Shown piece after piece: positions 4,167-22,299 of a stretch of DNA of 64,000 nt (positions within the stretch are counted from its first letter, which is position 1; each line of letters opens with the position of its first letter). The DNA is from Apibacter raozihei. Its GTDB lineage: Bacteria > Bacteroidota > Bacteroidia > Flavobacteriales > Weeksellaceae. The notes under the pieces are model-generated. The model was not told the DNA's origin, ran no database searches, and saw only the letters and a list, made by a program, of their open reading frames with translations. Where the stretch lies: positions 1,240,001 to 1,304,000 of the forward strand of contig NZ_CP034930.1 of assembly GCF_004014855.1 (NCBI RefSeq), written 5' to 3'. The position numbers were made by a program, and so were the translations under genes.

Positions 4167-5759
4167 TTATTTGCGTTTATATAAATAATAGACTTCGAGT
4201 GCATTGTTATCAATATCATTTTTAATAGTGTCTGTTTTAATCAAATTATAATTTTCTTTTAAAACAGGTAAGTGATAGTAGTATAGGAATTCATCGGTAT
4301 TATTAGGATCATTTTCTTTAATTTTTGATAAATTATAGATACGACATGGTAATACTATAAATTCAGTCTTCTTTTGTCTGATGTATTCCGTCTGATCGTT
4401 TCTTAGCTCAGGAAATGTACTAAATGGCAAGTTTGGTTTTAAAAAGAATTTTACATTGGGAACAATATTACATGTAGTAAATAAGCTATTACCTAATCCA
4501 AACCCAAGATTTAATAAAGTAGGATGTGGTGATTTTTTTATTTCGTCGCTTAATCTTTCAGTCATAAATCCATCCACCTTGAAATCTTTACTATTTAAAA
4601 TTTTATATTCGAGCCATGTATTTGTTAGCCTTTTTTGGCTTAAACACATAAAGAAAAATATAAAGAAAAATGAGGCTATCATTCCTGATGTAAATTTTAC
4701 AGACGCATATTTTTTTATGTATATAAATATGCATACCAAGCCCAAAACATCAAAAACTAAAAAAGGAATCGGATAATAGTAGAAAAAAGTTTTAGACATA
4801 AAAATAATAACGTATAGAGTTATTCCTGAAAGAATAATACTCCATCGCCCAATCGTATTTTTTATAAAATTTACCGGGAAGATAAAAATTCCAATAATAG
4901 GAAGAAGAAATAAAGAAAAACTATCTAAAAATAAGTAAAGGATTTTAGTAACTAATAAAATCAATACTTCAGTCAGAGAACCAACTTTTGCATATTTGCT
5001 ATTTAAGACTATGTAAGTGTTATAGGCCTCTTCTAAAGCGTTATTTACATAGAAATACAGGATGATAGGAATTGCTACTAAAGCAAATCCTGCTAAATAA
5101 GCTAGCAGATTATAAATTATATTTTTATATCTTTTATTAGAAAGAAGATTAATAAATATACCTAACAAAGGGAAAAACCAAAACATGATTAAGTTTATTT
5201 TTGTTAAAATTACCATCGAACAGATAATTCCATGAACAAACATACACCAAGGATTGTGAGAAAAATTACCCTTATCTTTAAAATATCTGACAAACAAATA
5301 CAAGCTTATAATTTCACCTACTAGGATAAATTCTTCAGCAGATCCTCCGGCTATCATTAGTTTTAAAAGAAAAGAAGGAAATATGAGAGCGGTGAAAAAG
5401 GATCCGGCTTTTCCCAGATATAATCTTGCTGTAAGATAGATAGAATATGACATTAAGAGCCAGGATATCAGCTCAATGATAAACATACCGAAAAAGTTAG
5501 AATTCGATATTATATAACCTGCACTATACAAAAAGAATATGAAAGGTCCTTTATGATCAAATACTTCTGTATATAAAGTACGGCCATTAACCATTCCTTT
5601 CGCTACATTAAAATATACATTTGGATCAGACCATTCGTTAGTTACGTAAAAGGGAGACATTTTTGAGCAAAAAAACAGCAATAAAAAAATGTATAAAGTT
5701 AAAAGTAAAATAAAATTTTTATCTTCTTTTATAATTTGTAAAGTACTTTTGTTAGTCAT
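4167..5759 (-). CDS. Polytopic membrane protein, GT-C (family 39-like) glycosyltransferase candidate
   Basis: The 530-aa protein has about ten to twelve hydrophobic segments and an acidic first periplasmic loop (NEWSDPNVYFNVAKGM, then DHKGPFIFFLY around residue 68). This is the layout of GT-C enzymes such as the family 39 lipid-linked sugar transferases, where a loop Asp acts in catalysis. The C-terminal 100 residues are soluble and would face the periplasm. It is the last gene of the PKS operon, 14 bp after the second GT1 gene. It may therefore add a sugar to, or flip, the membrane-embedded product. The family assignment comes from topology and loop motif only; it could also be a non-enzymatic integral membrane protein. 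Confidence 0.55.
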   Translation of the reverse strand: MTNKSTLQIIKEDKNFILLLTLYIFLLLFFCSKMSPFYVTNEWSDPNVYFNVAKGMVNGRTLYTEVFDHKGPFIFFLYSAGYIISNSNFFGMFIIELISWLLMSYSIYLTARLYLGKAGSFFTALIFPSFLLKLMIAGGSAEEFILVGEIISLYLFVRYFKDKGNFSHNPWCMFVHGIICSMVILTKINLIMFWFFPLLGIFINLLSNKRYKNIIYNLLAYLAGFALVAIPIILYFYVNNALEEAYNTYIVLNSKYAKVGSLTEVLILLVTKILYLFLDSFSLFLLPIIGIFIFPVNFIKNTIGRWSIILSGITLYVIIFMSKTFFYYYPIPFLVFDVLGLVCIFIYIKKYASVKFTSGMIASFFFIFFFMCLSQKRLTNTWLEYKILNSKDFKVDGFMTERLSDEIKKSPHPTLLNLGFGLGNSLFTTCNIVPNVKFFLKPNLPFSTFPELRNDQTEYIRQKKTEFIVLPCRIYNLSKIKENDPNNTDEFLYYYHLPVLKENYNLIKTDTIKNDIDNNALEVYYLYKRK

Positions 5760-5773
5760 TGGTTCTATAAAAC

Positions 5774-6967
5774 TTATTTAATGATATTTTTTGTTTCTGC
5801 GAAGTTCTCTAATAATTCTACGGCTTTAGTATTACCTCCGGCTTTTATAAAAGTTTGTTTTATTCTTTCAGCGTTTTGGCGGTATTCATTATTATTTAAA
5901 ACTTCTAAAACTGAATTTTCAAGATCGTTTTTTTTCATTCTTTTATATCTTAATCTTATTCCGCTTCCTGAATTTTCAACCAGTGAGGCATTATAAAATT
6001 GATCGTATGCTAATGGAATTACTACCATAGGAAGTGAATTCATTAAAGATTCATTAATAGTATTAAAGCCTCCATGACAAATAACTGCATCCATATGCGG
6101 AAGAAGTTGAATTTGTGGCAGGTATTTTTGTACTATAAAGTTATCAGGCCATTTTTCAAATAATTCAGGATCAACGGATGCAATAATAGTAACATCTTTA
6201 TCTTTAAAAGCATCAATTAATTTAGTGAAAAAATCTTTTCTAATGTCTGTTAAAACAGTTCCAATAGATACGAAAATTTTAGGATTAGAAATTTTATTTA
6301 TACTTTCCCAGTCAAAGGATGAATTGTCCGGTCTTCCTAAAACAGGTCCGATAAACTTATTACAAGGTTCTGTTGAAGTTATCCCAGCAAATTCCTCCGA
6401 TGTGAATATTAATGATAATTTTGAAGAGACAATTAAATGTTCTTTCTCTTCTATACCAAAATATTTTTGTAAGCCAGAAATCTGGTTATAGGCCCATTCA
6501 GCTACTTTAGGAGCCATGTCCGGATTTCCCATGACTTCAGGTGGTGAAGTCATAGTAGTAGCATAAGGTATATTGTAAAGATAGGCTGCAAGCCCGCCTG
6601 CAAATGTTATTCCGTCATTAATTATTACATCAGGTTTAAAGTTTTCAATAACATTTTTTAAACCAGGCATCATTATTTTAGCTAGAGGTACATAGGTTTG
6701 TTCAAGTGCCAGTTTAAGAATTTCCAATCCGGTTACATTACTTCCGGTACCCTGTAGCTCCATGATTTTTTCAATTTCGTCCTGATAAGGTTTTATTTCT
6801 TTTTCAGGATAATAATAATGACCTTTTACAGGAATAGTATTTTTGTCTAAGGGATAAATCCCTGTCCATGCGACTTCATGTCCTCTTTCCAAAAGACTAT
6901 TTCCTATACTTAAGGTTGGATTTATATGTCCGATAAATGGAGGTACAACAAATAAAAATTTCTTCAT
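5774..6967 (-). CDS. GT1 (MGT/UGT-type) glycosyltransferase, second copy
   Basis: A 397-aa GT-B fold transferase of the macrolide-glycosyltransferase type, which moves a sugar from an NDP donor to a small hydrophobic acceptor. The N-terminus FVVPPFIGHINPTLSIG contains the His (residue 14) that normally deprotonates the acceptor. The C-terminal donor motif reads ICHGGFNTINESL with DQFYNA behind it. It is clearly a paralogue of the gene 5 bp upstream, sharing IGHINPT/TGHINPT, the CHGG motif and overall length, so a tandem duplication with divergence is likely. Its place in the PKS operon implies the acceptor is the PKS product or an intermediate. The sugar donor cannot be read from the sequence. 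Confidence 0.85.
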   Translation of the reverse strand: MKKFLFVVPPFIGHINPTLSIGNSLLERGHEVAWTGIYPLDKNTIPVKGHYYYPEKEIKPYQDEIEKIMELQGTGSNVTGLEILKLALEQTYVPLAKIMMPGLKNVIENFKPDVIINDGITFAGGLAAYLYNIPYATTMTSPPEVMGNPDMAPKVAEWAYNQISGLQKYFGIEEKEHLIVSSKLSLIFTSEEFAGITSTEPCNKFIGPVLGRPDNSSFDWESINKISNPKIFVSIGTVLTDIRKDFFTKLIDAFKDKDVTIIASVDPELFEKWPDNFIVQKYLPQIQLLPHMDAVICHGGFNTINESLMNSLPMVVIPLAYDQFYNASLVENSGSGIRLRYKRMKKNDLENSVLEVLNNNEYRQNAERIKQTFIKAGGNTKAVELLENFAETKNIIK

Positions 6968-6972
6968 AACAT

Positions 6973-8157
6973 TTAATTATTAAGTATAGATTCTAAATAG
7001 TTGGCTCCTTGTACCACTCCTCCAGATTTTTCAAATGATTTTTTTATATTTTCAGCACCTATTTTATACGCTTTATCGTTTAAAATATGGTGAACAGATT
7101 CTTTTAGTTGTTCGGCTTTGAACCTGTTGAATTTTAACCGTATTCCTGCGTTATTATCAACAACACAACCTGCCACATAGGATTGATCATATGCAATAGG
7201 AATAACAATTAATGGAATACCATAGGTTAAAGATTCACAAACTGTATTTTGTCCTCCGTGGCAAACTACAGCATTCATCAAATGAATAAGATCTAATTGC
7301 GGAATTTGTTTTTGTATGATAAAGTTATCAGGTATTGAATCGAAATATTCGGGATCTGATATGACAACTACAGTTAATTTTTCATTTTTAAAAGCGTTAG
7401 TTATTTTATCAAAAAATGATTTTTTTTGTGAATGATCAAATGTAGTACCTATGGTAACTAAAATTTTTGGTTGGTTTCCAAGATCTGCCAGTTTTTCCCA
7501 GTCAAATAAAATAGAATGAGAACGTTTGTTAATAGAGGGACCAATAAACTTAAAATTATCCGGTAAATCAGTATTTCCGAAAAAATCTTTTGAAGTATAT
7601 ACCAGCGTTAATAATTTAGAACAATCTAGTCTCTCATTACCTTCAATTCCATTTTTTTGCTGAAATGCTATAACTTGCTGACTTTCCCACTCATGTATCA
7701 TAGGAAGATTTTCATTAACCTTTATGGAAGCCGGAGCCGTTACCGACGTAGCATAAGGAATTTGTTTTTTTATTGCAGCTACAGAACCTGCGAATAGTTG
7801 ATGGTCTGAAATTATTAGATCGGGTTTATATTGATCAATAATTTTTTCTATACCTGGAAGGATATACGTGTTCATAGGAGTCAAAACTTCTTCATACAGA
7901 AATTTTAAGCTTTCAATACCTGTCACAGATTTTTTTTTCAGCTCTTCAATATATGCTTCCTGATGTTTTTTTTCTTCTTCAGTTAGATTTATGGGAATAA
8001 GCAATAATTTACCACCAACAGGTAATTCTTTCTCAAGCTGAGGATCAAAACTTAGCCAGGATACTTCATGATTTCTTGTGAGCAATTCCTGACCCAAAGC
8101 CAAAGTAGGATTAATGTGTCCGGTTAATGGAGGAACAATAAATGCAAATTTTGCCAT
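6973..8157 (-). CDS. GT1 (MGT/UGT-type) glycosyltransferase, first copy
   Basis: A 394-aa GT-B glycosyltransferase. The acceptor-side His lies in PPLTGHINPTLALG, the nucleotide-sugar motif is VCHGGQNTVCESLTYG, and the PIAYDQSYVA segment usually contacts the sugar. No signal peptide or membrane helix is present, so it acts in the cytoplasm or at the inner membrane face. It starts 13 bp after the alpha/beta hydrolase and ends 5 bp before its paralogue, with one operon transcript implied. Two different GT1 enzymes suggest two sugars, two positions or two acceptors rather than simple redundancy, but this is inference. Confidence 0.86.
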   Translation of the reverse strand: MAKFAFIVPPLTGHINPTLALGQELLTRNHEVSWLSFDPQLEKELPVGGKLLLIPINLTEEEKKHQEAYIEELKKKSVTGIESLKFLYEEVLTPMNTYILPGIEKIIDQYKPDLIISDHQLFAGSVAAIKKQIPYATSVTAPASIKVNENLPMIHEWESQQVIAFQQKNGIEGNERLDCSKLLTLVYTSKDFFGNTDLPDNFKFIGPSINKRSHSILFDWEKLADLGNQPKILVTIGTTFDHSQKKSFFDKITNAFKNEKLTVVVISDPEYFDSIPDNFIIQKQIPQLDLIHLMNAVVCHGGQNTVCESLTYGIPLIVIPIAYDQSYVAGCVVDNNAGIRLKFNRFKAEQLKESVHHILNDKAYKIGAENIKKSFEKSGGVVQGANYLESILNN

Positions 8158-8170
8158 ATTTTTAAAATTC

Positions 8171-8935
8171 TTAAACGTTAAAGAAATCTGCTAATTTCTT
8201 TTTAATCCATTCTGGATTTTGAATAGGTATATTATGATCTCCTTCTCCTTCAAAAAATGTTACATTTGGAATGTAATTTTTAAGAATCTTTCCATCAGGT
8301 AAGCAATCAGATTGCATACCATAAAGTAATAATGACTCTTGATTTACTGAGTTCATATTCTCTTTTGAAGAAAAATATCTGTCTTTGATTAAATCATCAG
8401 GCATAGATGATTCATGCATGAGATAATCAAATAATTTTTTATTTTTTTCGAGTTGTCTTTTATTAGGAACAATTTTGGTTGATACACTATAATTTTGCAT
8501 ATAATGTTCTAAAAACTCGTTTCCGTATTTTTCTATAACTTTTTCTGTATCTCCGTCTTTGTCTGTAATTGGAGATTCAATTATAGCAATTTTTTTAATT
8601 CTTTCAGGGTAATGGATGGCGCTATATAGTGTTATTAAACCACCAAAACTATATCCTACCAAATCTACTTGAGAAAGATTATAGAAGTTTAGAAGATGAA
8701 TTAAATCTGAGGATAATGACTTTAAGTCAAAACCCTGATCTATTTTTTCACTAAGTCCATGACTTCTCAGGTCATAAAGAAGTACATGATATTTTTTAGC
8801 AAGCTCAGGAGCTATATTGAAATAAAATAAAGAAGAGTTTGTAAACATACCGTGAATCATAACGATAGTTTCAGAAGCTTCCTTATTGAGCTCCAGAATA
8901 TGAACTTTTTTATTATTTATTTCAACTATGGGCAT
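8171..8935 (-). CDS. Alpha/beta hydrolase, possible product-releasing or editing esterase
   Basis: A 254-aa single-domain alpha/beta hydrolase. The oxyanion segment IHGMFTNSS starts at residue 28. The nucleophile elbow is GYSFGG (Ser96), an acid Asp is plausible near residue 208 (SDCLPDG), and the catalytic His is at 234 in GEGDHNIP. The triad looks intact. The gene overlaps the ACP gene by 14 bp and precedes the glycosyltransferases by 13 bp. No thioesterase domain is fused to PKS1 or PKS2, so this enzyme is the best candidate to release the chain or to clear stalled acyl groups. The fold is certain; the substrate is inferred from context. Confidence 0.82.
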   Translation of the reverse strand: MPIVEINNKKVHILELNKEASETIVMIHGMFTNSSLFYFNIAPELAKKYHVLLYDLRSHGLSEKIDQGFDLKSLSSDLIHLLNFYNLSQVDLVGYSFGGLITLYSAIHYPERIKKIAIIESPITDKDGDTEKVIEKYGNEFLEHYMQNYSVSTKIVPNKRQLEKNKKLFDYLMHESSMPDDLIKDRYFSSKENMNSVNQESLLLYGMQSDCLPDGKILKNYIPNVTFFEGEGDHNIPIQNPEWIKKKLADFFNV

Positions 8936-9218
8936 TTACAATAAGATTTACAATATCACCTATAGATAAATTAATCAGCTGTTCCATGTCCATGCCGGAT
9001 AACCATTCATTAAAATCCATTCTGTCGCCATATTCTTGTTTCACTTTTTCAGCTAAAGCAACGATTTCAATGCTATCCATTTCCAGGTCCTTAGTAAAAA
9101 TGCTCTCAGGTGTTATATCCAGTTCATCAGCAATATCTTCTCCAAGTACTTCAGTTATAAATTGTTTTAATTTTTCGAATACCTGTTCTTCTTGTTGTTG
9201 TATATTTAAAGAGTCCAT
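8922..9218 (-). CDS. Free-standing acyl carrier protein of the PKS operon
   Basis: A 98-aa ACP with the phosphopantetheine site LEMDSIEIV (Ser49) in an acidic four-helix context (GEDIADEL, ITPESIFTKD). The residues around the serine differ from the LSIDSIKRME sites of PKS1, so it is not a split-off copy of those domains. It overlaps PKS2 by 13 bp and the hydrolase by 14 bp, a sign of tight translational coupling. It may present the starter or the finished chain to the hydrolase and glycosyltransferases. The PPTase domain at the end of PKS2 could activate it. The role is inferred; the ACP identity is clear. Confidence 0.85.
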   Translation of the reverse strand: MDSLNIQQQEEQVFEKLKQFITEVLGEDIADELDITPESIFTKDLEMDSIEIVALAEKVKQEYGDRMDFNEWLSGMDMEQLINLSIGDIVNLIVNAHS

Positions 9219-12200
9219 CCTATTATAAAATTGTTATATTTAATTGTGTTGATTGTTGTATTTTTTATTGTTAATATTTCTCCATTTATTGATTCAACTT
9301 CATATTGTTTCGGATTCCCTTTAAGACCTAGTCCGAGCATTTTTCCATATGCTTCTTTTGCGGTCCAGAACCGGGTAGTCCATTCAGCTAAATCTTTACC
9401 TTCAAGCAGTTTCATTTCTTGACTTGTAAAAGCCAGATCCATAAAACCTTTATCCCTGTTTTCAATTGTTTCTATATCAATGCCTACTGGCTTATAAGAA
9501 CTAATGGTCACAGAATTGCTGCCTTTGTGAGCAATGGATATTTCCATATTTTTTGTCTCTGGAACTCCGTGAATTGACGGTTTTCTATTCGGATCGTATT
9601 GAACATTAAATTCAATTGGATAATACTTCTTACCGGAATGGTTTTCAATAAACTTCCTTACACTATCTTTTAATGAAATACGACTGATCAGATAATCTTT
9701 TTTCTTATTCAGCATCAGAGAGTCATAATGACGTTTTTCTTCCTGATTTAAATATATATTCATCAGGAATTCCCAGTTTATGGCTTTACTATAAGCATTG
9801 TCAAAGAAATATATATCCGGAGCTATGTTATCAGATAATATATATTCTGAAGGGCTCATCGTTAAGTTCCATAATTTTTTATCAAACCCTTCAAAAATCT
9901 GATTTTTCCATCCCTTTATAATGCACCATATTTTACCTTCTCTTTTTATTATAATGTCTGCGGTTGCAATTTGGGCAGTAAGTGATGTTGGTAAACAAAT
10001 ACATTCGAAAACGCCTTGCTGATCCTGTACATCCTGATAAAAATTAATTTCTTCAATTTTTACTGGAAAACTTACAGAAGATTCATCGCCTAGGGTTAAC
10101 TGTAGGAATAAACCGTAAAGCTGGCCAATATTATCTAAAAGTGATCCTTTTCCTGTTGATTTTTTTATAAATCCACGAAGACCTTTTTCATTAATATTTG
10201 TAACTTCTATAATTCCCTGATATCCTGGACCATGAAACATATGTTCTTTGTAAATAGTTTCTTTAGTGGGAGGAATTAAGCTATTAGCTTCCCACTCAAT
10301 TTCATTTAAGTAGTGCGGATCCGGTGTAGGGAAAGAATTGCCTAATAAGACTTCACCAGTTGCGAAATTTTTTATTTTTAATGATATTTGTTCTTCTGAT
10401 TTCCAGGTACCTTCAATTTTTTGACTGAACGGAGTGAAAACTTTCATCCACTGAAATACACTCACAGGACCTAAGCGTAAAACTTTCTTATTTATATCCT
10501 GTTTATGAGCTGCCTCTATCAATAATTCAAATGTCATTGTCATAGGAATTACCGGACCTATATCTTCAAGAATAGTCCAGTGTGAAGGTTGTTTAAATAG
10601 AGAATGATCAATTAAATAAGGATGTTCTTTAATATCTACATACAAATTTTCTTCAAACGATTTTCCAGTTTTATTTACTGATTCTACCGACTGAGTATGA
10701 TTTTCTTCATTATGTAAGTCAGTTTGTTGGATGTTCCTGTTGTTGGATGTAATTTTTTGTTTGTATGATCCGGAAAAGTTGCCGTTTGATTTTATAAGTT
10801 GATTAAGTTCTGACTGCATATCTAAAAGAGCACTGATATTCTCATTCATTGCCATTGCTACCGGATGGCTGGAATCTATAAATAAGTCAGTAGATAATTC
10901 ATTAATTGATGTTGGTTGTGAATGATATTTTTTTGATATTTCATCAATTACTGAAAAATCTTTTAGTATAGGAACGTTTAAAGATAATTTAAATTTGGAA
11001 TCCTGATCATTGGTTGTTTCTTTAATTCCGAGAAATTCAGTATCTAAATCATTTTTTCCTTCAATAAATAATAGGGCAAGAATTCTTCTTAATTGTTCAA
11101 GCGTTGTACGGTTAGATACATAAGCCGAAATAGCAGAATATTCTTTGTTTTTGAGTATATCGTCAACAAATCCAATCAGACTACCGCTGCCTATTTGTAT
11201 AAACATACGTGCATTTTCCTGCGTATACATTTTTTCAATAAGCTCTCTAAATCTAACTGCTTGTAAAAGATGTTTTATAGTTAATTCCTTAAAATCTTTA
11301 AAATTATCCGGATAAAGCTCGAGTGTTGTTGCCGACCAAACCGGAATTTGATTATGTTCGATTTTTATATGCTCGAGGGCTTCATCTAATAAATATAATT
11401 TATCCTTTATAAAAGGAGAATGAAATCCTGATTGGAAAGGTAAAACCTGATGAAAAATCTGTTTGGATTTAAGTACATCTAAAATCGAGTCTCTGGCTTG
11501 TTCTGTTCCGCAAAGTAATATCTGGCTAGGACAGTTATCATTGGAGACATATAAATCAGGTATTTTTTCAATGTAAGGATTCAGTTTGTCAACTCCACAA
11601 CCTGCAGCAATAAAGTAAGCATTACTTACCTGGTACTTATCAGGATCCATGGACGCAAGTAAGTTCTTAACAGAATCATTGGAAATCAATCCGCTAGATT
11701 TAGCTGCAAACCACTCTCCTAAGCTATGACCTGCGTTCATATCAGGAATAACTCCTAATGTTTTTAGAGAACTGTCAATAATTTCTCCTGCATGGAATTG
11801 TTTAAATGATTGATTCAGTATCGGATTTGACTGAGCTGTTTCTTCAGGAATTTCATATCCGAAATATTCTGCTATACTCTGAACCTCTGGGTTGGAAGAA
11901 GGATCGAATCCGGGAAATAAAAAGGCTATTTTCCCATTTCCTTTTAATAAGGGTTTATTGGAAAACCATATATCTTGTCTACCTTTCCAAGGTTTATCTT
12001 TAGCAATCAGTTTTTTTGCTTTTTCTAATCTTTCAGGAGTAGGATTGAAAACAATTAGTCTGTAATCTCCATTTATATCTGAAAAAGTAAAATTTCTGTT
12101 ATCAATGGCGTAAATAAGTTCTTCTTTAGTTTTTGCTGTGATAGCAATAACTTCTTCTGTGAATGTTAACTTCTTTTGGCTCGGATTCTTGTCATGTGAT

Positions 12201-13531: not shown

Positions 13532-13541
13532 AGGTTTAAAA

Positions 13542-16500
13542 TCAGATTCCAAAAAATTGTTTAACTCCGTCACCACCACCCATTATTAATACTTGATTAT
13601 CGTGTCCGAATTTAAGTTCTTTAATAAATTCCTGACCTCCTTGTTTTAATGGAATGAGAGCGACTCCTCTTTTGTTAAATTCATTTTCAAGGGCAGAGGA
13701 AACCATTCCGGCTCCTTTCCAAGGACCCCAGTTTACTGTAAGTATACGAGCATTAAGTTTATCTTTAATAACCCAGGATGTTAAGTCAAAGACACTGTTA
13801 GCTGCTGCATAATCCGATTGTCCTCTGTTTCCATAGACTGAAGCTATACTGCTGAAGAGTACAATAAATTTAATATCTGGTCTAAGTTCGTCTAGAATTA
13901 CGTGTAAAGGATTAATTTTAGTGGAATATACTTTATTAAAAGCATCCGCTGTTTTATGAACCAAAAGTTTATCTACTAAAAGTCCTGCTGCATGTATGAT
14001 ACCATCAATTTTTCCATATTTTTCGTATGTGCCACGAATGAAATTCCGCAGATTATTTTCATCCGTTACATCTAAAGAGACATATGTTACTTTTGAGCCG
14101 GATTTTTCAATATTCGAAATCGTAGCTGCTATTTGGTTTTCTTTTTCAATTTGTTGTGCTTTTTTCTCAATTTCAGCAGGAACAGTCATTTTCTCTTCTG
14201 ATATAAGATGCTTACGTATTTCATTTTTATCTTTTAAAAATGAATACTTTTTATTTTCATCTGACGGTACTGGAGAACGTCCTACAAGAATGTAATGACA
14301 AGGATATTCATCTGCTAATTGTGCGGTTAATTCTGAAGTAATACCTTGGGCACCTCCAAAAACAACAACTACCGAATCCTTGTCTAATGAGATGTTTGAT
14401 TTTCCGTTTACTGATAAGCTTTCAGGAACAAGATTTAAACGTAGTCGCTGAGAATCTTTGTATACAACTTCAGCAGAAATATCAGTTGATATTAATTCGT
14501 CTAAAATTATTTGTGAAACTTCTTCTGCATTTAGTAGTGTATGGGATATAATAGCTCTGCAATTAATTGCGGAAAATTCTCTTGCAATACTTTTTATCAG
14601 TCCCGGATAACCTTCAATTTTCTTTAACTCAGAAATGTTTTCGGTATTTTGAAGGCTTCCAATTACATCACTATAGCTAAAAATCCATTGAATTTTTTCG
14701 AGATTGCTTTTCTTGATTAATGAAAAAACTTCTTGAGTTGAATAATGTAAAGGAGATTGAGAAATATCTAGTACAATAAGTCCATCGTAAGAGGTTAAAT
14801 CATTTTCATCTTTGCTTATTATTGAAGAAATTCCTCCTTGTTTTTCAATAGCTTTTTGAATGATAGTAGCAAATTCTCCTCCATCATCGGTTATAGCTAT
14901 ATTTTTATCTTTTATTGATAATTTTTCTTCAGATTGAAAATCCCATTTTTCAAGTTCGAACCGAGTTCTTAAAAGAGGTTTATCTTCCTCAGACTGACTT
15001 ACCAGATTTTGCTCAAGTTCCAAAATTGAATTGGCATCAAAGGATACAGGCGTAGTTTCTTTAGTATTATTACTAGTAGAAAGGGCTTTCCCTGCTTCTT
15101 CCGGATTACCGTTGATGATATCCTCAATCCATCCGATAACTCCGTTCAAGGTTTTAATAGAAGCCATTTTTTCAATAGCATCTTCAGATTCCTCGAAATC
15201 TCCTTCCATGTTAAGTTTTTCACGTAAAGAGCCAATGATCTCCATTCTTTTGATTGAATCTATACTTAGGTCTGCTTCGAGGTCTAAATCAAGACCTAGC
15301 ATATCTGTCGGATACCCTGTTTTCTCACTAACTGTTTCCAGTAATGTGTTTTTTATATGTTCCGCAGATATTGCCGGAGATGCTGCTACAGTTTCAGTTT
15401 TTATAGTTTGCAGATTAGCTTCTGTGGAAGATAAAGTTGCCGGAAGTTCTGATTGAACTAATTCTTCAACCCATCCGATAACACCGTTTAAGGTTTTAAT
15501 TGAAGCCATTTTCTCGATAGCATCTTCAGATTCTTCGAAATCGCCTTTTAAATTTAGTTTTTCACGTAATGCACCAATAATCTCCATTCTTTTAATAGAG
15601 TCGATACTTAAATCTGCTTCCAAATCCATTTCAAGTCCTAGCATATCAATTGGGTAGCCTGTTTTTTCACTAACAGTATCTAAAAGAGCTGACTTTATTT
15701 CCTCCAGTGATAGTGTTGCAGCAGAAGGTTGTTGTACGGAAGCAGTTGAAACAGCCATTGGTGTTTTGGCATCTTCAATTTTCGCTGGTGATATTTTATT
15801 TGTAGTGTTTACACTGATTACTTGTTGAGATGGAGACTGTGATATTGATGGTGTATGACCCAAATAACCCAACATTACATCACGTTGATTTTGTATCATG
15901 GTTTTCATATTCCCAAGATATTCAAGCATGATATGGTCAGATTCAGTCATGAGGTTAGATCCAGCTCCGTTTATAGAAAAATTATTTAAACTAACAGGTT
16001 CTGTAATTGGTAAAGCTCCATTAGCAGGCATTGGTCCCACAGAAGGTACAGCATTATGACCATTGATAAACCAGATTGTAGGTTTTTTCTTATATAATTC
16101 GGGTTGATCCAAGTCTAAAACTTTAGCATTCCGATTATCAAACAATTTTTCGATATATATATTTCTTCCGGTAGCAATATATTTAGCAAGGGCGTTAAGA
16201 ATATAATTAATACCCTCTTTACCTTTTTCCTCAGTTTGAATAATGCTGATTGAGTCTTTTTCTTTAATAGAAGACTGAGCTAAGTTTATCAATACTTTCC
16301 CTGGTCCGGTTTCGATAAATATACGAGCCCCATCTGTATACATTTTTTGAATTTCTTCATTAAATAAAACAGGTTTTATAAGATGCTCGGAAAGTCTGGT
16401 TTTTATTTCATTTCCCTGAGTTGGATATAAATCTGCGGTAGTATTAGACCAAACAGGAATAGAAGGAGATTTAAAGCTCACTTTTTCAAGTTCTTTAGCA

Positions 16501-19500
16501 AATAAATCTTTTGATTTTTCTAAAAGAGGGCTATGAAAGGCACAGTCTACACTTAATTCTTTATAAGAAATGTTTTGTTGTCCCATTTCTTTCATTAATG
16601 AATTCATTGCAAAGGTAGTACCTGCAAGTATAGTTTGTTTAGGCGAGTTAAAATTAACAGGCCAAATGTCATTTTTACCAGCAAGAAGTTGCTCTAATTC
16701 CTGTTGTGAAATCCCTACAGCGATCATTTTTCCTTTGTCGTTTCCAATGGCATTTAGAATAGATTCTGCTCTTTTTCGACTTAGAGAAACTAGATTTTCA
16801 GAGTCAAAGGCACCACTAAAGCATAATGCCGGTAGTTCTCCATAGCTATGACCAGCCACCATATCAGGTTCAATCCCTAAGGAACGTAAAAAGTCTGCTA
16901 TGGCCAAGTCTACAATTCCAAGGGCAGGCTGAGCATTCTGAGTCTGAGTAATAGTTTTTTGTTGAATTTTTTTACTTTCCTCATCAAAGACTGTATTAGG
17001 ATAAAGAATTTTATCATATTCAGGATGTTGAAGAAGTAGTTTTCTCATAGAAGGAAATGCTACTAAAAGATCCCTAGCCATATTAATTCTTTGGCTTCCT
17101 TGTCCTGAAAACAAAAATGCTACTTTACCTTCTTTTGGATTACGCAGGTAAATATCAGATTCATTTATATCATTAATTATAGATTCCAGCTTGTTTTTTA
17201 ATTTTTTTATACTTTTAGCAACAAGTGTAATCTGAATTTCTTTCTGATTATAAAAAGCGAGGCTGTAGGCAATATCTCTGAGAGTAAGTGAATCGTTTAC
17301 AGAGATTAGAGTTTGTACTTTTTTAGCTAATTCTTTAGCTTCTTCTAAAGTATCTCCTCTGAAAATGAATAATTCCGAAGGCCATAAAGTTAATGCACTG
17401 GTTTGCTTAACTTCAGATTGATAATTTTCCATGACAACGTGGAAATTTGTTCCACCGAATCCAAAGGCACTGACACCGGAAATTCTTCTTTCACTTCCCC
17501 AAATTCCTGCATTCGTATTAAAGATAAAAGGACTTGTTTCTTTATTATAGAATGAATTTGGATTTGATAAGTTTATGGTTGGTGGTTGTACTCCATAATA
17601 CATAGATAATGCAGCTTTAATAACTCCTGCAAGTCCTGCGGCACATTTGGTATGACCAATTTGAGTCTTGACAGAACCTAAATGTGTTTGTCCTGTTGTT
17701 GCTCCAGATTCTAAAAACATATCTGTCAAAGCACTTAGCTCAGTTTTGTCTCCAACTACCGTACCGGTTCCATGCGCTTCAATAAGTTCAACCTCAGAAG
17801 GTAATACTCCTGCATTTTTGTATGCTCTTTGTAAAGCTTTCATTTGCCCCTTTTTGTTTGGAGCAGTCATTCCTAAATTTTTGCCGTCACTACTTCCTCC
17901 GGTTCCACGTATTACAGCGTAAATTCTATCTCCGTCTCTTTCAGCGTCTTCAAGTCTTTTTAAAATAATCATTGAAACACTTTCTCCAAGAGCAATACCA
18001 TCAGCATCTGAATCAAATGAGGCACAGCGTCCTTTTTTTGATAGTGCATAGGTTGCAGAAAACATCAGGTAATCGTTAAGTCCGTTATGTAAATCAGCTC
18101 CTCCTAATACAACAATGTCAGAGCGTTTATTTTGTAATTCCTGGTAAGCTATATCCATAGCTGCAAGTGACGACGCACAAGCAGCATCTACGGTAAAGTT
18201 ACTTCCTCCTAAATTCAGTCTGTTAGTTATTCTACCGGCTACTACGTTAGATAAAACTCCGGGAAATGAATCTTCATTTAGCTTAGGAAGTACATTTTTT
18301 AACTCTTCCGGTAGTTCTCCAAACACTTGTTTTGCATACCCTCTGAATCCATAGCTGGCAGCTAATTCGGTAGCACCTTCAGCACCAATAATTACAGAGG
18401 TGTTTTCTCCATCAAATGTAGCCATATCATATCCTGCATCTTCCAATGCTCTTTTAGCAACAAGAAGGCTCAATAATTGTACAGGTTCAATAGATGCTAA
18501 TGATTGAGGCGGAATTCCAAATTCCAACGGATCAAAATCAATTGTTGGAATAAATCCTCCCCACTTGGAGGATACAAAATCTGTATCTCTTGTGTCCGGA
18601 TTATAGAAAAGCTCTTTATTCCATCTGCTATCAGGTACTTCAGTTACACAATTTTTTGATAATAATATATTTTTCCAGTATTCTTCTAATGTTTTAGCCT
18701 GAGGGAATATTCCAGCCATCCCTACGATAGCTAATTTTACAGGTTCATTCTCTCGTAAAGGCTCTTCGATTTTATCTAGTTTTGAAATTAAGGCATTGTT
18801 ATCAATAGCAACATTTGAGTGTAAGTCATCAAGAGTAACAACTTTATCTCGTAGTGAGGAAATTTGTCCAATCATGAACACACCTTTCTCTACCTGATCT
18901 TCGTCATTTAAGCTAACCAGATTACTACCTTGTCTTTCAATTCCTTTTGCAGCAATTCTTTGACGCCCTAAGTTCATTTCTTCCAGTTTTAACCAGACTT
19001 CTTTTGAATCCAGTCCTTCAGCAAAAAGCTGCTCTTTAACTTGTGTAAAATGTTCGGTAAAAGGGGTAGGCAATGCTCGGGTTTCCTGACCTGGAGCTGC
19101 TTCTAATAATATTGTTTTTGAATGATTGACAGATTGCTCCTGATAGCTTTTTAATATTGCTCCGGTTTCAACTGCTTCCTTTGTAAATAGATAAGAAGAA
19201 CCCATTAAGACTCCTATTTTAGCTCCTTTAGCAGCTAAAGAGGCTGACATTATGGATATAAATGCGGAAGAAAAGGCGTCGTGAATTCCTCCTGCAAAAA
19301 ATACATTCAGGGTTGATGGATTTTCATCTTTAATTAACCTGAATATTTGTTTTTCCCATAATACCATACTTGAAAGCGGACCTACATGTCCTCCACTTTC
19401 CCGACCTTCAAAGATAAAGTTACGGGATCCTTCTTTCATAAACATGTCAAGCAGGGTTACAGAAGGTACATGTAAAAATACTTTTATTCCTTCTTTTTCA

Positions 19501-20687
19501 TATGGTTTTGCCAATGTAGGTCTTCCTCCGGCAATAATTAATACAGGAGGCTTGTTTTCTAAAATATATTTCATTTGCTCTTCCCTTAACTGAGAAGGTG
19601 CAAATCCTAAAATACCAATTCCCCAAGGCTTATCTTTAAGCAATTCGGCTGTTTTTGATACAGCTTGTTGTGCTGCCTGTCCTATCATTAGACTCAATGC
19701 TATGAATGGAAGAGCTCCTGCATCTGTGACTTTATCAGCAAATTCTGGAACGTCGCTTACTCTGGCCATAGGTCCTTGTGCTATTGGAAATTTAATTCCA
19801 AGTTCTTGAGCCAAAGGACTATTTTCTCCTATTATGTTTAAGCTTTTTGCTTGTAATAAATGCCCGTAAGCAGCTTCTCTTACAGCATAGATAAAGTTGT
19901 CCAGAGTTTTATATTTCTCAACAAAATCAACGGATAAAGCAACATCTTGACCCATAGGAAGGATGTTTTCAGATAGATCTATTCCTCCCAGATAGGGAAC
20001 TATATCTTCGTATTTTGGGTTTAAAGGTAACGAAGGTGAGTTTTTTCTAACTAATATTCTATAACTGTCTATTAGTATTGTTTCACTACCACTAAGTCTA
20101 CCCAAAACATTTTTTAATTCTTTGGGAAGTCTGCACTCAGGGAATAATGCTACCTGGCTGTCATAAATTATACCCTGTGCCCCCATAGCTAAAGCAGCAG
20201 CAGAGGTATGTACCCCCATTCCACCTTGTATGTATATGTTGGTATTGGTATGAGGAAACATTTTTTTTATACCTTGTAAAAGTACAAATGAAGATTCATA
20301 AGCAACTTTTCCAGCTCCTTCATTCCCTTTTAATACAATTGATTTAACACCTTTTTTTATAGCCTCTTCAGCTTCATCAAGTGAGAAAACCTGGTATATT
20401 GTTTCAACATTTTCTAAGGTAGGGAAAGTTGCAGATAAATTAAATGGGATAAATATTCTATTAACATTTTCTGGTAATTCCAATGAGTCGGATATTTCCG
20501 AAGTAACACATATGCCGAACGATTTTTTTGTTTTATCAGATAAATCTTTTAGGCTCTGTCTCGCTATTTCTTTATCCCTTCCTAAATGTAATATGGGGTT
20601 TGCTCCTACTTTAATAGTTTCTAAAGCTAGGTAAACATCTGGCATCTCAAAAGGAGAAAGAACGAATAATTCTTTGTTTTTTTGCAT
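13542..20687 (-). CDS. PKS1: tandem NPD-type reductase units - KS - AT - ACP - ACP - KR
   Basis: A 2381-aa type I iterative PKS/PUFA-synthase-like enzyme. Residues 1-260 look like a degenerate 2-nitropropane-dioxygenase-type barrel (QGGMGVHTSAAALAMGA). Residues 295-545 are a second, better preserved one (PIAQGPM, ESGGHVGP with His434, FFAGGIHD), the fold of PfaD-type trans enoyl reductases. An active KS follows (about 648-1085) with Cys837 in VDAACASS, His972 and His1012, and an AT (about 1185-1480) with Ser1281 in GHSYGE and His1385. Two ACPs carry LSIDSIKRMEI at Ser1697 and Ser1811, the signature of PUFA-synthase tandem ACPs. A KR ends the protein (about 2100-2340; Ser2280, Tyr2293, Asn2297). 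There is no DH or thioesterase here; PKS2 brings the DH. First gene of the operon. Confidence 0.93.
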   Translation of the reverse strand: MQKNKELFVLSPFEMPDVYLALETIKVGANPILHLGRDKEIARQSLKDLSDKTKKSFGICVTSEISDSLELPENVNRIFIPFNLSATFPTLENVETIYQVFSLDEAEEAIKKGVKSIVLKGNEGAGKVAYESSFVLLQGIKKMFPHTNTNIYIQGGMGVHTSAAALAMGAQGIIYDSQVALFPECRLPKELKNVLGRLSGSETILIDSYRILVRKNSPSLPLNPKYEDIVPYLGGIDLSENILPMGQDVALSVDFVEKYKTLDNFIYAVREAAYGHLLQAKSLNIIGENSPLAQELGIKFPIAQGPMARVSDVPEFADKVTDAGALPFIALSLMIGQAAQQAVSKTAELLKDKPWGIGILGFAPSQLREEQMKYILENKPPVLIIAGGRPTLAKPYEKEGIKVFLHVPSVTLLDMFMKEGSRNFIFEGRESGGHVGPLSSMVLWEKQIFRLIKDENPSTLNVFFAGGIHDAFSSAFISIMSASLAAKGAKIGVLMGSSYLFTKEAVETGAILKSYQEQSVNHSKTILLEAAPGQETRALPTPFTEHFTQVKEQLFAEGLDSKEVWLKLEEMNLGRQRIAAKGIERQGSNLVSLNDEDQVEKGVFMIGQISSLRDKVVTLDDLHSNVAIDNNALISKLDKIEEPLRENEPVKLAIVGMAGIFPQAKTLEEYWKNILLSKNCVTEVPDSRWNKELFYNPDTRDTDFVSSKWGGFIPTIDFDPLEFGIPPQSLASIEPVQLLSLLVAKRALEDAGYDMATFDGENTSVIIGAEGATELAASYGFRGYAKQVFGELPEELKNVLPKLNEDSFPGVLSNVVAGRITNRLNLGGSNFTVDAACASSLAAMDIAYQELQNKRSDIVVLGGADLHNGLNDYLMFSATYALSKKGRCASFDSDADGIALGESVSMIILKRLEDAERDGDRIYAVIRGTGGSSDGKNLGMTAPNKKGQMKALQRAYKNAGVLPSEVELIEAHGTGTVVGDKTELSALTDMFLESGATTGQTHLGSVKTQIGHTKCAAGLAGVIKAALSMYYGVQPPTINLSNPNSFYNKETSPFIFNTNAGIWGSERRISGVSAFGFGGTNFHVVMENYQSEVKQTSALTLWPSELFIFRGDTLEEAKELAKKVQTLISVNDSLTLRDIAYSLAFYNQKEIQITLVAKSIKKLKNKLESIINDINESDIYLRNPKEGKVAFLFSGQGSQRINMARDLLVAFPSMRKLLLQHPEYDKILYPNTVFDEESKKIQQKTITQTQNAQPALGIVDLAIADFLRSLGIEPDMVAGHSYGELPALCFSGAFDSENLVSLSRKRAESILNAIGNDKGKMIAVGISQQELEQLLAGKNDIWPVNFNSPKQTILAGTTFAMNSLMKEMGQQNISYKELSVDCAFHSPLLEKSKDLFAKELEKVSFKSPSIPVWSNTTADLYPTQGNEIKTRLSEHLIKPVLFNEEIQKMYTDGARIFIETGPGKVLINLAQSSIKEKDSISIIQTEEKGKEGINYILNALAKYIATGRNIYIEKLFDNRNAKVLDLDQPELYKKKPTIWFINGHNAVPSVGPMPANGALPITEPVSLNNFSINGAGSNLMTESDHIMLEYLGNMKTMIQNQRDVMLGYLGHTPSISQSPSQQVISVNTTNKISPAKIEDAKTPMAVSTASVQQPSAATLSLEEIKSALLDTVSEKTGYPIDMLGLEMDLEADLSIDSIKRMEIIGALREKLNLKGDFEESEDAIEKMASIKTLNGVIGWVEELVQSELPATLSSTEANLQTIKTETVAASPAISAEHIKNTLLETVSEKTGYPTDMLGLDLDLEADLSIDSIKRMEIIGSLREKLNMEGDFEESEDAIEKMASIKTLNGVIGWIEDIINGNPEEAGKALSTSNNTKETTPVSFDANSILELEQNLVSQSEEDKPLLRTRFELEKWDFQSEEKLSIKDKNIAITDDGGEFATIIQKAIEKQGGISSIISKDENDLTSYDGLIVLDISQSPLHYSTQEVFSLIKKSNLEKIQWIFSYSDVIGSLQNTENISELKKIEGYPGLIKSIAREFSAINCRAIISHTLLNAEEVSQIILDELISTDISAEVVYKDSQRLRLNLVPESLSVNGKSNISLDKDSVVVVFGGAQGITSELTAQLADEYPCHYILVGRSPVPSDENKKYSFLKDKNEIRKHLISEEKMTVPAEIEKKAQQIEKENQIAATISNIEKSGSKVTYVSLDVTDENNLRNFIRGTYEKYGKIDGIIHAAGLLVDKLLVHKTADAFNKVYSTKINPLHVILDELRPDIKFIVLFSSIASVYGNRGQSDYAAANSVFDLTSWVIKDKLNARILTVNWGPWKGAGMVSSALENEFNKRGVALIPLKQGGQEFIKELKFGHDNQVLIMGGGDGVKQFFGI
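15108..15710 (-). repeat. Tandem repeat encoding the two ACP domains of PKS1
   Basis: Two copies of about 260 nt recur with a 342-nt period. Their phosphopantetheine Ser codons are at 15597-15599 (ACP1) and 15255-15257 (ACP2). The copies share long stretches at both protein and DNA level: SIDSIKRMEIIG, LREKLN, and FEESEDAIEKMASIKTLNGV, followed by IGW. This is recent duplication or gene conversion. Tandem ACPs raise output in PUFA synthases, and the linkers between them are poor in order-promoting residues, as usual. Confidence 0.9.
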
Positions 20688-20818
20688 AGTTATTAAAGAA
20701 TATAAATTGTAAATAATAAACCAAATTTATGGTAAAATAATGATCTAAAATGCTTAAAAGATCAGTGCATATGGTTAATTAAATAAAAAAAATGATTTCT
20801 ATTGTCTTAATCAAGATG

Positions 20819-20847
20819 CAAATATAATAAAAAAAACTTGAATACAA
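20819..20847 (-). promoter_or_regulatory. Candidate Bacteroidota-type promoter of the PKS operon
   Basis: Read on the minus strand, TTG (20845-20847) is followed after 18 nt by TATATTTG (20819-20826), matching the Flavobacteriia consensus TTG-N17-23-TAnnTTTG. It lies in the 172-bp gap between the MATE gene and PKS1 and would leave a 5' leader of about 125 nt. A second box without a matching upstream element, TAAATTTG at 20722-20729, lies closer to the gene. The call is by consensus only. Confidence 0.45.
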
Positions 20848-20859
20848 ATAAAGTGAAAC

Positions 20860-22227
20860 TTATCTGATTTCGAGTTTTTTTAGATGATTTAATTGGATAA
20901 AAAGTATTATTACAGCTAATAGTGTTGACACTAAATCTGATAAAGGTATGGAATACCAAATGCCATCAATTCCATAAAATTTAGGAAGTATAAATAAAGC
21001 CGGGATAAGTATGATAAATTGTCTTGTCATACTTAAAAAGAATGAATATAATGCTTTTCCGATACATTGGAAAAAGTTTGATATAACCATTTGCAGTCCG
21101 CTTAGAGGAAGTGTGATAGTCATTATTTTAAGAGCTGTAGTAGCTTCTTCAGCAAGTTGGGCAGATGGATTGAATGGTTTGATTACTATGTCAGGTAAAA
21201 CTATTCCTACTAATAAGCCGACAGATCCTATTAAAATTCCTGTTTTAATAGTATAGTTAAGTGTTTGTTTCACTCTGTCCATTTTTTTTGCTCCGTAATT
21301 ATATCCGATTATAGGTTGCATGCCTTGTGTAAGACCTACCAATATCATAATAAATACCATGATTAATCGATTTGCAAGAGTATATGATTCAATTGCAATG
21401 CTGCCACCAAAGATTTTTAAACGATTGTTAATGAAAAAAACGACTACAGATGCAGCTAAAAGCATAAAAAATGGTGCGAAGCCTATGTTAATTATAGACC
21501 ATACAATTCTGGAATTCCAACGTAGATAATTCCATTTGAGAGATAACGGATTTTTTTTATTTAGAAAATGGATCAATACTACGCTTAATCCTATCATTAT
21601 TGATAAATTGGTAGCTATAGCAGCTCCTTTCATACCCCAATCCATTATAAAAATAAATACAGGTGCAAGTAAAATGTTTGCAAAAACTCCTATAAGCATT
21701 GTATACATAGCTTTTTTAGGATATCCTGAAGCTCTCATAATGTTGTTCAACGCAAAGTTTACGGTTAGAAAAACATTACCCGGAAGATAATATATTAGAA
21801 ATTCTTTAGCAAAAAAAAAGGTTTCTTCTGTACTTCCTACGGCATATAAAATTTTATTAGTAAAAATATAAGTGGTTATTATGAAGGTAGTTGTAAGTAA
21901 TATGGCTAGCGTTATTGAGTTGCCAATGACTTTTCTGGCTCCCTCTATGTCTTTTTGCCCCAAAAGAATGGATACTCTTGCCGATGCTCCAGAGCCTACC
22001 AGCATCCCTAATCCGGAGATAAGATTCATTACTGGTAACAGGATACCTAGTCCCCCAATTGCATGATCTCCTAAATCTGGGCCATGTCCGATATAAATAC
22101 TATCAATAATATTATATAGTGCAATAACCGCTGTGCCGATAATTGCAGGTATTGCGTATTGCCAGAGTAAATTTTTAGGATTTTTAGTTTCTAATTCTGT
22201 TATTTTTTTAGCTTCAGGAAGTATCAT
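20860..22227 (-). CDS. MATE family multidrug/lipid exporter
   Basis: A 455-aa inner-membrane protein with twelve hydrophobic helices in two similar halves, the MATE (NorM/DinF-like) layout of cation-driven exporters. The N-terminal segment LLWQYAIPAIIGTAVIALYNIIDSI and the later VGLTQGMQPIIGYNYGAKK are typical; the latter is a strong family signature between the halves. It is read in the same direction as the PKS operon, with 172 bp between them, and appears to have its own promoter. It could export the PKS-derived product or protect the cell from it, but MATE genes are common and the link is by position only. Confidence 0.88.
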   Translation of the reverse strand: MILPEAKKITELETKNPKNLLWQYAIPAIIGTAVIALYNIIDSIYIGHGPDLGDHAIGGLGILLPVMNLISGLGMLVGSGASARVSILLGQKDIEGARKVIGNSITLAILLTTTFIITTYIFTNKILYAVGSTEETFFFAKEFLIYYLPGNVFLTVNFALNNIMRASGYPKKAMYTMLIGVFANILLAPVFIFIMDWGMKGAAIATNLSIMIGLSVVLIHFLNKKNPLSLKWNYLRWNSRIVWSIINIGFAPFFMLLAASVVVFFINNRLKIFGGSIAIESYTLANRLIMVFIMILVGLTQGMQPIIGYNYGAKKMDRVKQTLNYTIKTGILIGSVGLLVGIVLPDIVIKPFNPSAQLAEEATTALKIMTITLPLSGLQMVISNFFQCIGKALYSFFLSMTRQFIILIPALFILPKFYGIDGIWYSIPLSDLVSTLLAVIILFIQLNHLKKLEIR

Positions 22228-22268: not shown

Positions 22269-22299
22269 CAAAAGTACAAAATATAATTAGGGTCAGCAA
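22269..22299 (-). promoter_or_regulatory. Candidate promoter of the MATE exporter gene
   Basis: On the minus strand TTG (22297-22299) precedes TACTTTTG (22269-22276) by 20 nt, a full match to TTG-N17-23-TAnnTTTG. The upstream element lies in the last codons of the response-regulator gene. Transcription would start about 35 nt before the ATG at 22227. No terminator hairpin is visible between the regulator and MATE genes, so read-through from the two-component operon is also possible. Confidence 0.45.

Follow-up and report, generated by a model that had tools for sequence, protein, structure and literature searches.

An operon in Apibacter raozihei for a probable glycosylated long-chain lipid, built around a secondary lipid synthase whose second ketosynthase lacks its catalytic triad

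What does a large iterative polyketide synthase (PKS) make when its genes are joined to those of several glycosyltransferases (GTs) and an exporter? This question is raised by a locus of Apibacter raozihei, which lies in the 64-kb stretch of DNA analyzed here (the window), taken from a 3.29-Mb genome assembled as a single contig. The open reading frame (ORF) list of the window contains a minus-strand run of eight co-directional ORFs at positions 4167–22227, which encode two PKS proteins (PKS1 and PKS2), a free-standing acyl carrier protein (ACP), an alpha/beta hydrolase, two GT1 enzymes (GT1a and GT1b), a GT-C-like membrane glycosyltransferase, and a MATE exporter. This is the sole large multidomain PKS of the genome, as other matches to ketosynthase (KS) and acyltransferase (AT) domains lie in frames of ≤681 amino acids. 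The product is probably a sugar-decorated long-chain lipid. Taken as a whole, the best explanation for the locus, and one we consider rather likely, is a secondary lipid synthase resembling the type called N, equipped with glycolipid tailoring enzymes.

The gene set of the operon is genuine and conserved. The order PKS1-PKS2-ACP-hydrolase-GT1 is found in all seven orthologues from the genus Apibacter (the window, G007, G011, A. mensalis, A. muscae, A. adventoris, and the G009:C24 cluster of the termite-gut metagenome-assembled genome Im510), and in all 10 loci, each of 40 kb, that were compared whole from a large sister genus, presumably Chryseobacterium given how many of the family's genomes it supplies and that Type N is on record for C. 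gleum. The same order occurs in G471 (another family of the same order), in G1276 (another order of the same class), and on plasmids of Streptomyces sp. NBC_00984 and NBC_01243. This core is therefore shared by Apibacter, its sister genus, members of two further Bacteroidota families, and a pair of Streptomyces plasmids. GT1b follows GT1a in every one of these Bacteroidota clusters (7/7 Apibacter, 10/10 sister genus, G471, and G1276), and a methyltransferase gene follows the GT1 gene on the plasmids. Because the five-gene order recurs in two phyla, it is beyond chance.

A query with the dehydratase (DH) and phosphopantetheinyl transferase (PPTase) region of PKS2 matched 132 of 320 family genomes at E ≤ 0.001. 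Strong matches (E below 1e-140) account for 113 of these, seven in Apibacter and 106 in the sister genus, and the other 19 genomes match over the PPTase only, with E above 1e-9. A PKS2 search of a contig database returned four loci only, in A. mensalis, A. muscae, A. adventoris, and the termite-gut genome Flavobacteriaceae Im510_bin53. Searches of 395 sampled genomes each found relatives in 27 (order), 4 (phylum), and 2 (class) genomes, window included; these samples overlap and are small relative to the groups, the thresholds were strict (1e-15, 1e-15, and 1e-25, respectively), and absence elsewhere is not implied.

The initial annotation had described about 18 kb of minus-strand genes that, from PKS1 to the last gene, either overlap or are separated by less than 15 bp, and had given a domain order for both synthases. 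The ORF list and Pfam bear out the coordinates and the order, and the measured overlaps are 38, 13, and 14 bp and the gaps 13, 5, and 14 bp. In PKS1, Pfam matches cover NMO/NPD (residues 290–555), KS, AT, two PP-binding stretches, and the ketoreductase (KR), and the tandem ACPs that had been proposed are present as two exact LSIDSIKRME motifs. The CAFHSP motif of the AT (AT1) is, by a rule we assume to apply, that of a malonyl-type enzyme. PKS1 scores 1065.5 bits against the PfaA model TIGR02813 of NCBIfam, over its curated cut-off of 1010.1, which agrees with the earlier proposal of chemistry like that of polyunsaturated fatty acid (PUFA) synthases; PKS2 reaches 316.4 bits, which is under the cut-off. 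Pfam matches in PKS2 are KS, AT, and PPTase. Homology of PKS2 begins at residue 17 in most relatives, and translation may therefore truly start from the ATG at that residue.

Two assignments are the weak points of the domain order. The DH has no Pfam match at E ≤ 0.01 in the full-length protein, and when scanned alone it matches PS-DH at E 0.047, short of the cut-off. PS-DH matches appear in four of the six relatives in the same scan (up to E 10; best 3.6e-5), and the DH of a Streptomyces homologue passes the Pfam cut-off (42.2 vs 23.7 bits), so that the window DH is a candidate assigned through its relatives. The first NPD domain (NPD1) is without a Pfam match of its own. Its predicted structure, moderately confident at a mean pLDDT of 61.5, has nitronate monooxygenase and FabK structures as best Foldseek matches (best E 3.1e-8, TM 0.4–0.5), and its sequence is weakly similar to that of NPD2 (E 3e-4), which suggests an NPD-like domain. 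The earlier remark that no thioesterase domain is present is literally true of both PKSs. However, the operon also encodes a stand-alone alpha/beta hydrolase (8171–8935) whose nucleophile motif reads GYSFGG, and the view that a release enzyme is missing was rejected on this account.

The layout had first been taken as undescribed, and this part of the initial annotation did not hold. In the available parts of two papers, matching arrangements appear as "secondary lipid synthases" typed in 2011 (PMC3098273) and as fusions of pfaDA and pfaBC-PPTase (PMC13291983). Shulse and Allen (2011; PMC3098273) used KS phylogeny together with domain structure to distinguish 20 types. Type N, with Chryseobacterium gleum and Chitinophaga pinensis, is listed there with an unknown product, for which the authors guess a structural role. 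The layout of the window is most likely Type N. Both come from Bacteroidetes, and the window KS1 groups with the sister genus that we presume to be Chryseobacterium. The available text of that paper has no occurrence of "glycosyl" and does not include Apibacter. Unlike Type N, the Apibacter clusters have a KS2 that appears inactive and carry GT-C and MATE genes in place of a pair of PapA-like acyltransferases. The PPTase has motif P1b' (hShxH) of Types M–T as ISIAH, whereas motif P1a, x(G/D)xP, reads NRKP in the window. Since sister-genus rows, which keep both motifs, read VGKP here, P1a was lost in the Apibacter rows.

The available text of a 2026 paper (PMC13291983) reports pfaDA and pfaBC-PPTase fusions from Flavobacteriales hybrids, in Aquimarina and Flavobacterium, and likens them to Renibacterium. 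In Aquimarina sp. TRL1 and Flavobacterium sp. N502540 these genes share with the window, by description only, the two-gene fusion and C-terminal PPTase, but are joined to assembly lines that combine PKS with nonribosomal peptide synthetase.

A KS tree of 64 rows, in which long branches leave the deep order unsure and which does not include the C. gleum, HglE, and Shewanella PfaA type sequences, places the window with its sister genus in a single clade of 20 Bacteroidota PKS1-KS rows (support 100/99). The next lineages to join it are, in order, the two Streptomyces plasmids (100/98), a plasmid from Rhodobacteraceae (99/86), and the Type P pair of Beijerinckia and Methylosinus (98/92). PfaA-like rows from Streptomyces, Rhodococcus, Azospirillum, and Persicobacter form a separate clade that excludes the window KS1. 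Nostoc and Planktothrix plasmid KS rows, which may be HglE, are far off. The window KS is not nested in a clade of known product, a placement that the initial annotation had named as grounds for refutation; the nearest such clade in the tree is Type P, whose members make phenolic lipids. The KS2 domains of Bacteroidota and Streptomyces also form one clade (99/99), and therefore the split into two PKSs is old.

The closest systems differ from the window in several ways. The Streptomyces plasmid clusters, which we label Type M-like from phylum and layout, share the core order and have sister KS1 and KS2 clades, but they carry a single GT1 gene, one ACP motif in PKS1, and a KS2 that its triad predicts to be active. 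The Type P phenolic lipid cluster of Beijerinckia indica (pBIND02) has a PKS1 homologous from the N-terminus through KR (KS1 49% identical) and a DH-PPTase protein, but has no second KS, and type III PKSs make the head group. Membership of the window in Type P was rejected, as Pfam finds no type III PKS among the eight genes and PKS2 has a KS domain. A plasmid of Methylosinus sp. C49 carries a similar Type-P-like cluster (L082, 10153–20458), in which a single type III PKS-like gene accompanies the gene of a DH-PPTase protein. Canonical Pfa systems (Types A and B) were rejected because they have separate pfaA-E genes, a KS-CLF-DH-DH PfaC, and four to six ACPs, whereas in the window there are two ACP motifs and only two genes, and PKS2 has a single KS and a single DH. 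Enediyne PKSs were rejected because they are single KS-AT-ACP-KR-DH-PPTase proteins, whereas the window has two proteins; the enediyne row (the KS of S. clavuligerus that adjoins UnbU) falls outside the window clade on a long branch with weak support. Mycobacteria have glycolipid pathways that combine PKS, PapA, and GT enzymes. In the non-Apibacter clusters an iterative PKS likewise stands with GT1s and PapA-like acyltransferases (Pfam PapA_C, Condensation), but the PKS architecture is unrelated.

The state of KS2 sets Apibacter apart. The Cys and both His residues of KS1 are kept in 21/21 aligned rows, and the corresponding KS2 triad is complete in all 34 non-Apibacter orthologues examined (10 from the sister genus, G471, two Streptomyces, 20 more from the sister genus, and G1276). 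In contrast, none of the seven Apibacter orthologues has a full triad. The window has Thr for Cys and Asn for the first His; A. mensalis, G007, and G011 have Glu and Asn at these positions; A. muscae has Tyr and Ser, with Asn for the second His; and the Im510 cluster (G009:C24) keeps Cys but has Asn for the first His. In A. adventoris the KS2 domain is gone, and the PKS2 frame opens just behind the PKS1 stop and runs from before the AT. From these residues, the window KS2 is very probably dead for condensation. This agrees with one half of the earlier proposal that KS2 is equivalent to a chain-length factor (CLF). The other half, an ancestral CLF or KS0, was rejected: because 34 of 34 non-Apibacter orthologues retain the full triad, KS2 is a recently inactivated KS. 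The Im510 genome holds a second, two-gene copy of PKS1 and PKS2 (L059/L060, G009:C54, 10621–21890), which has no adjoining ACP, hydrolase, or GT gene and reads GFSIG in AT2 where others have GHSLG. The KS2 triad of this copy is intact, and therefore the Im510 host lineage can carry a normal KS2.

Rates of change agree with a loss of constraint. Compared with four congeners, the window is 41–51% identical in KS2 and 82–86% identical in KS1, whereas the values within sister-genus pairs are 89–92% for KS2 and 93% for KS1. KS2 is the fastest-evolving catalytic domain of both PKSs in the pairs compared with the window. The ratio of nonsynonymous to synonymous substitution rates (dN/dS) for KS2 is 0.12, 0.15, and 0.20 in three Apibacter pairs, compared with 0.01–0.02 for KS1 and with 0.01–0.03 for KS2 in six sister-genus pairs, and in those pairs that were bootstrapped the ranges are disjoint. 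Since these ratios are far below 1 and several synonymous distances are near saturation, the Apibacter KS2 appears to be relaxed, not free of selection.

It is somewhat probable that KS2 is dispensable in Apibacter. One KS can suffice, since Type P synthases, which have known lipid products and the same PKS1 order, use a DH-PPTase protein without a second KS. Several points weigh against dispensability: the low dN/dS leaves some constraint that may reflect a noncatalytic role, several pairs are close to saturated at synonymous sites, and the deletion in A. adventoris rests on one assembly. The strongest rival is that the Apibacter KS2 has turned into a CLF-like or decarboxylase-like partner through exchange of Cys for Glu or Thr, as in CLF and KSQ domains. 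The reading frame is kept in six of seven orthologues with dN/dS of 0.12–0.20, and the second His is retained in five of six. However, the replacements differ (Thr, Glu, Tyr, and also Cys kept with His lost), KS2 evolves faster than any other catalytic domain in pairs with the window, and the domain is missing in A. adventoris. We regard this rival as unlikely, although not negligible.

The tailoring genes also differ in Apibacter. GT1a and GT1b correspond to a single fused protein in the sister-genus loci and G471, where one frame has both donor-site motifs (10/10 and 1/1; 798–801 amino acids in five sister-genus loci and G471). The G1276 cluster has two separate GT1 genes. In a small GT tree, GT1b groups with the fused C-terminal half at 100/100, and the grouping of GT1a with the N-terminal half is not resolved. 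Two PapA-like acyltransferases and a small membrane protein (a weak match in G1276) follow the GTs in 10/10 sister-genus loci, G471, and G1276. The PapA pair matches Condensation, PapA_C, and AATase in Pfam, and HHxxxDG is present in one member and absent from the other. In one sister-genus genome (L054, G104:C2, 9247–11996) a tandem duplicate of PapA1 brings the number of PapA-like genes to three. A PapA1 query gave no match at E ≤ 0.001 in any of the seven Apibacter genomes but matched in 3/3 controls, whereas a GT-C query matched in 7/7 Apibacter genomes and 0/3 others. A MATE orthologue lies ahead of PKS1 in all seven Apibacter loci; none was seen within the ten 40-kb sister-genus loci, and MATE genes elsewhere in those genomes were not sought. 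Thus, comparing 12 non-Apibacter Bacteroidota clusters with seven from Apibacter, the PapA pair is gone in Apibacter and GT-C and MATE are in place. Another PKS adjoining GT-C enzymes was seen on plasmid p3 of Planktothrix agardhii (L078, 4505–22186), where a type I PKS occurs with a fatty acyl-AMP ligase, a hydrolase, and three glycosyltransferases, two of which belong to family 39.

A tentative account, to which we give slightly less than even chances, is that in Apibacter an ancient two-KS glycolipid synthase is being rebuilt as a one-KS enzyme. The first His of KS2 would have been lost early, the Cys would then have changed variously, and the domain would have been dropped in A. adventoris, with the sugar-acylating PapA pair simultaneously exchanged for export and periplasmic glycosylation.

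We propose that PKS1 and PKS2 act jointly and iteratively. The PPTase would prime the ACPs, AT1 would load malonyl units, and KS1 would condense them; KR, DH, and NPD2 would then reduce the chain to a long acyl product, largely saturated or partly hydroxylated or unsaturated. The Apibacter KS2 would no longer condense and would serve as a scaffold at most, leaving elongation to KS1 alone. Transfer or release of the chain would fall to the free ACP and the hydrolase, two sugars would be added in the cytoplasm by GT1a and GT1b, MATE would move the glycolipid out, and GT-C would add a further sugar on the outer side from a polyprenyl-phosphate donor. That the product is an iteratively built long chain is highly likely, that it is glycosylated is likely, and that it is exported and glycosylated again outside has an even chance. 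A glycosylated lipid is thus favored between the two products first suggested, a glycolipid or a glycosylated polyene.

Some observations speak against this proposal. A hotdog fold for the DH was tried and set aside because the model, from five sequences, was too poor (mean pLDDT 39.4). The substrates of GT1a, GT1b, the hydrolase, MATE, and GT-C are putative, and MGT-type GT1s also modify antibiotics. MATE sits 172 bp away from PKS1, and this gap holds one match to TTG-N17..23-TAnnTTTG, which we take to be the Bacteroidetes promoter consensus. Because of this promoter-like match the two genes need not share one transcript, and the exporter may be a general drug exporter. No product for the cluster was found in the open-access literature.

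The product could also be a small secreted, antibiotic-like glycosylated polyene or polyketide, whose aglycone the GT1s glycosylate for self-protection and which MATE exports as a toxin, by analogy with macrolide clusters. In favor of this, each GT1 aligns from end to end with TIGR01426, the macrolide GT subfamily, at scores (191.5 and 200.6 bits) that fall short of its 260-bit cut-off, the MATE gene adjoins, there is a single DH, and no membrane-lipid gene is obvious. However, the PapA-like acyltransferases outside Apibacter and the polyprenyl-type GT-C inside it point to an envelope lipid, KS1 is nearest to lipid-type synthases in the tree, and carriage by 106 genomes of one genus is more like a common envelope trait, which makes the antibiotic improbable. 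A membrane PUFA, with the GTs and exporter as unrelated neighbors, is very improbable. The score of PKS1 above the PfaA cut-off speaks for it; against it, the PKS-ACP-hydrolase-GT1 order is kept across two phyla, there are only one DH and two ACPs and no tandem KS-CLF-DH-DH protein, and KS1 falls outside the PfaA-like group.

The coordinates of the features are collected in Table 1. A kinase-regulator pair adjoins the cluster in 7/7 Apibacter loci. In the window, the histidine kinase is followed by two tandem response regulators (22293–22997 and 23038–23742; 86% identical over 232 residues), where other Apibacter loci have one. Two further genomes of the genus, G008 (83% complete) and G010 (97%), gave no PKS1 match at 1e-40 and no match to the PKS2 part; in G010 the contig ends. 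A 14.2-kb contig of G008 (L120, G008:C119) carries the kinase, one regulator, and GlnRS without the cluster, and an unrelated 674-amino-acid frame comes after these neighbors.

Table 1. Genes and predicted domains of the operon, with positions in the window
Feature	Position	Strand	Basis
GT-C/PMT_2-like membrane glycosyltransferase, Apibacter-specific part	4167..5759	-	Pfam, genome search
GT1b, MGT-type glycosyltransferase; C-terminal half of sister-genus fused GT	5774..6967	-	Pfam, NCBIfam, relatives, GT tree
GT1a, MGT-type UDP-sugar glycosyltransferase; N-terminal half of sister-genus fused GT	6973..8157	-	Pfam, NCBIfam, relatives, GT tree
Alpha/beta hydrolase, 254 aa, GYSFGG and EGDH motifs; candidate thioesterase	8171..8935	-	Pfam, motifs
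Free-standing ACP, 98 aa, LEMDSIEI	8922..9218	-	Pfam, motif
PKS2, up to 1457 aa, KS2 (predicted inactive)-AT2-DH-PPTase	9206..13579	-	Pfam, motifs
PPTase, residues 1364-1439 of PKS2	9263..9490	-	Pfam
Candidate DH, about residues 976-1290 of PKS2, conserved DH...P and D-x3-Q motifs	9710..10654	-	relatives, alignment
AT2, residues 604-800 of PKS2, GHSLG	11180..11770	-	Pfam, alignment
KS2, residues 20-413 of PKS2; Thr219 for Cys, Asn348 for first His	12341..13522	-	alignment
PKS1, 2381 aa, NPD1-NPD2-KS1-AT1-ACP-ACP-KR (PfaD-PfaA fusion)	13542..20687	-	Pfam, NCBIfam, motifs
KR, residues 2106-2324 of PKS1	13716..14372	-	Pfam
Two tandem ACPs, about residues 1665-1860 of PKS1, LSIDSIKRME twice	15108..15695	-	Pfam, motif
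AT1, residues 1191-1482 of PKS1, GHSYG, CAFHSP	16242..17117	-	Pfam, alignment
KS1, residues 652-1040 of PKS1, Cys837 and both His present	17568..18734	-	Pfam, alignment
NPD2, residues 290-636 of PKS1, PfaD/FabK-like enoyl reductase, ESGGH motif	18780..19820	-	Pfam, NCBIfam, motif
NPD1, residues 1-285 of PKS1, putative divergent FabK/NPD-like half	19833..20687	-	model, Foldseek; weak NPD2 similarity
172-bp gap with promoter-like match TTG...TATATTTG ahead of PKS1	20688..20859	-	motif scan
MATE exporter, Apibacter-specific neighbor	20860..22227	-	Pfam, NCBIfam, locus comparison

The kind of synthase is known, whereas the five-gene cross-phylum core, the tailoring swap in Apibacter, and the loss of the KS2 triad are new; neither the core, the KS2 loss, nor the glycolipid tailoring set was found in print in the open-access literature. 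Type N synthases have been catalogued since 2011 without a product, in the available text (PMC3098273). With the conserved neighbors (ACP, hydrolase, two GT1s, and PapA pair), the "unknown fatty acyl product" gives way to a prediction that can be tested, namely that the sister genus makes an acylated glycolipid and that Apibacter makes one that is glycosylated further and exported. With the cluster in 106 genomes of one genus and seven of Apibacter, this may be a widespread, overlooked envelope lipid of host-associated Bacteroidota. The Apibacter KS2 series is a natural experiment on the role of the second KS in PUFA-like synthases, a question that dates from the first CLF-like domains found there. 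If the rebuilding proposed above is true, the genus would show stepwise domain shedding by a type I synthase under strong selection, and its product would be unlike that of the sister genus.

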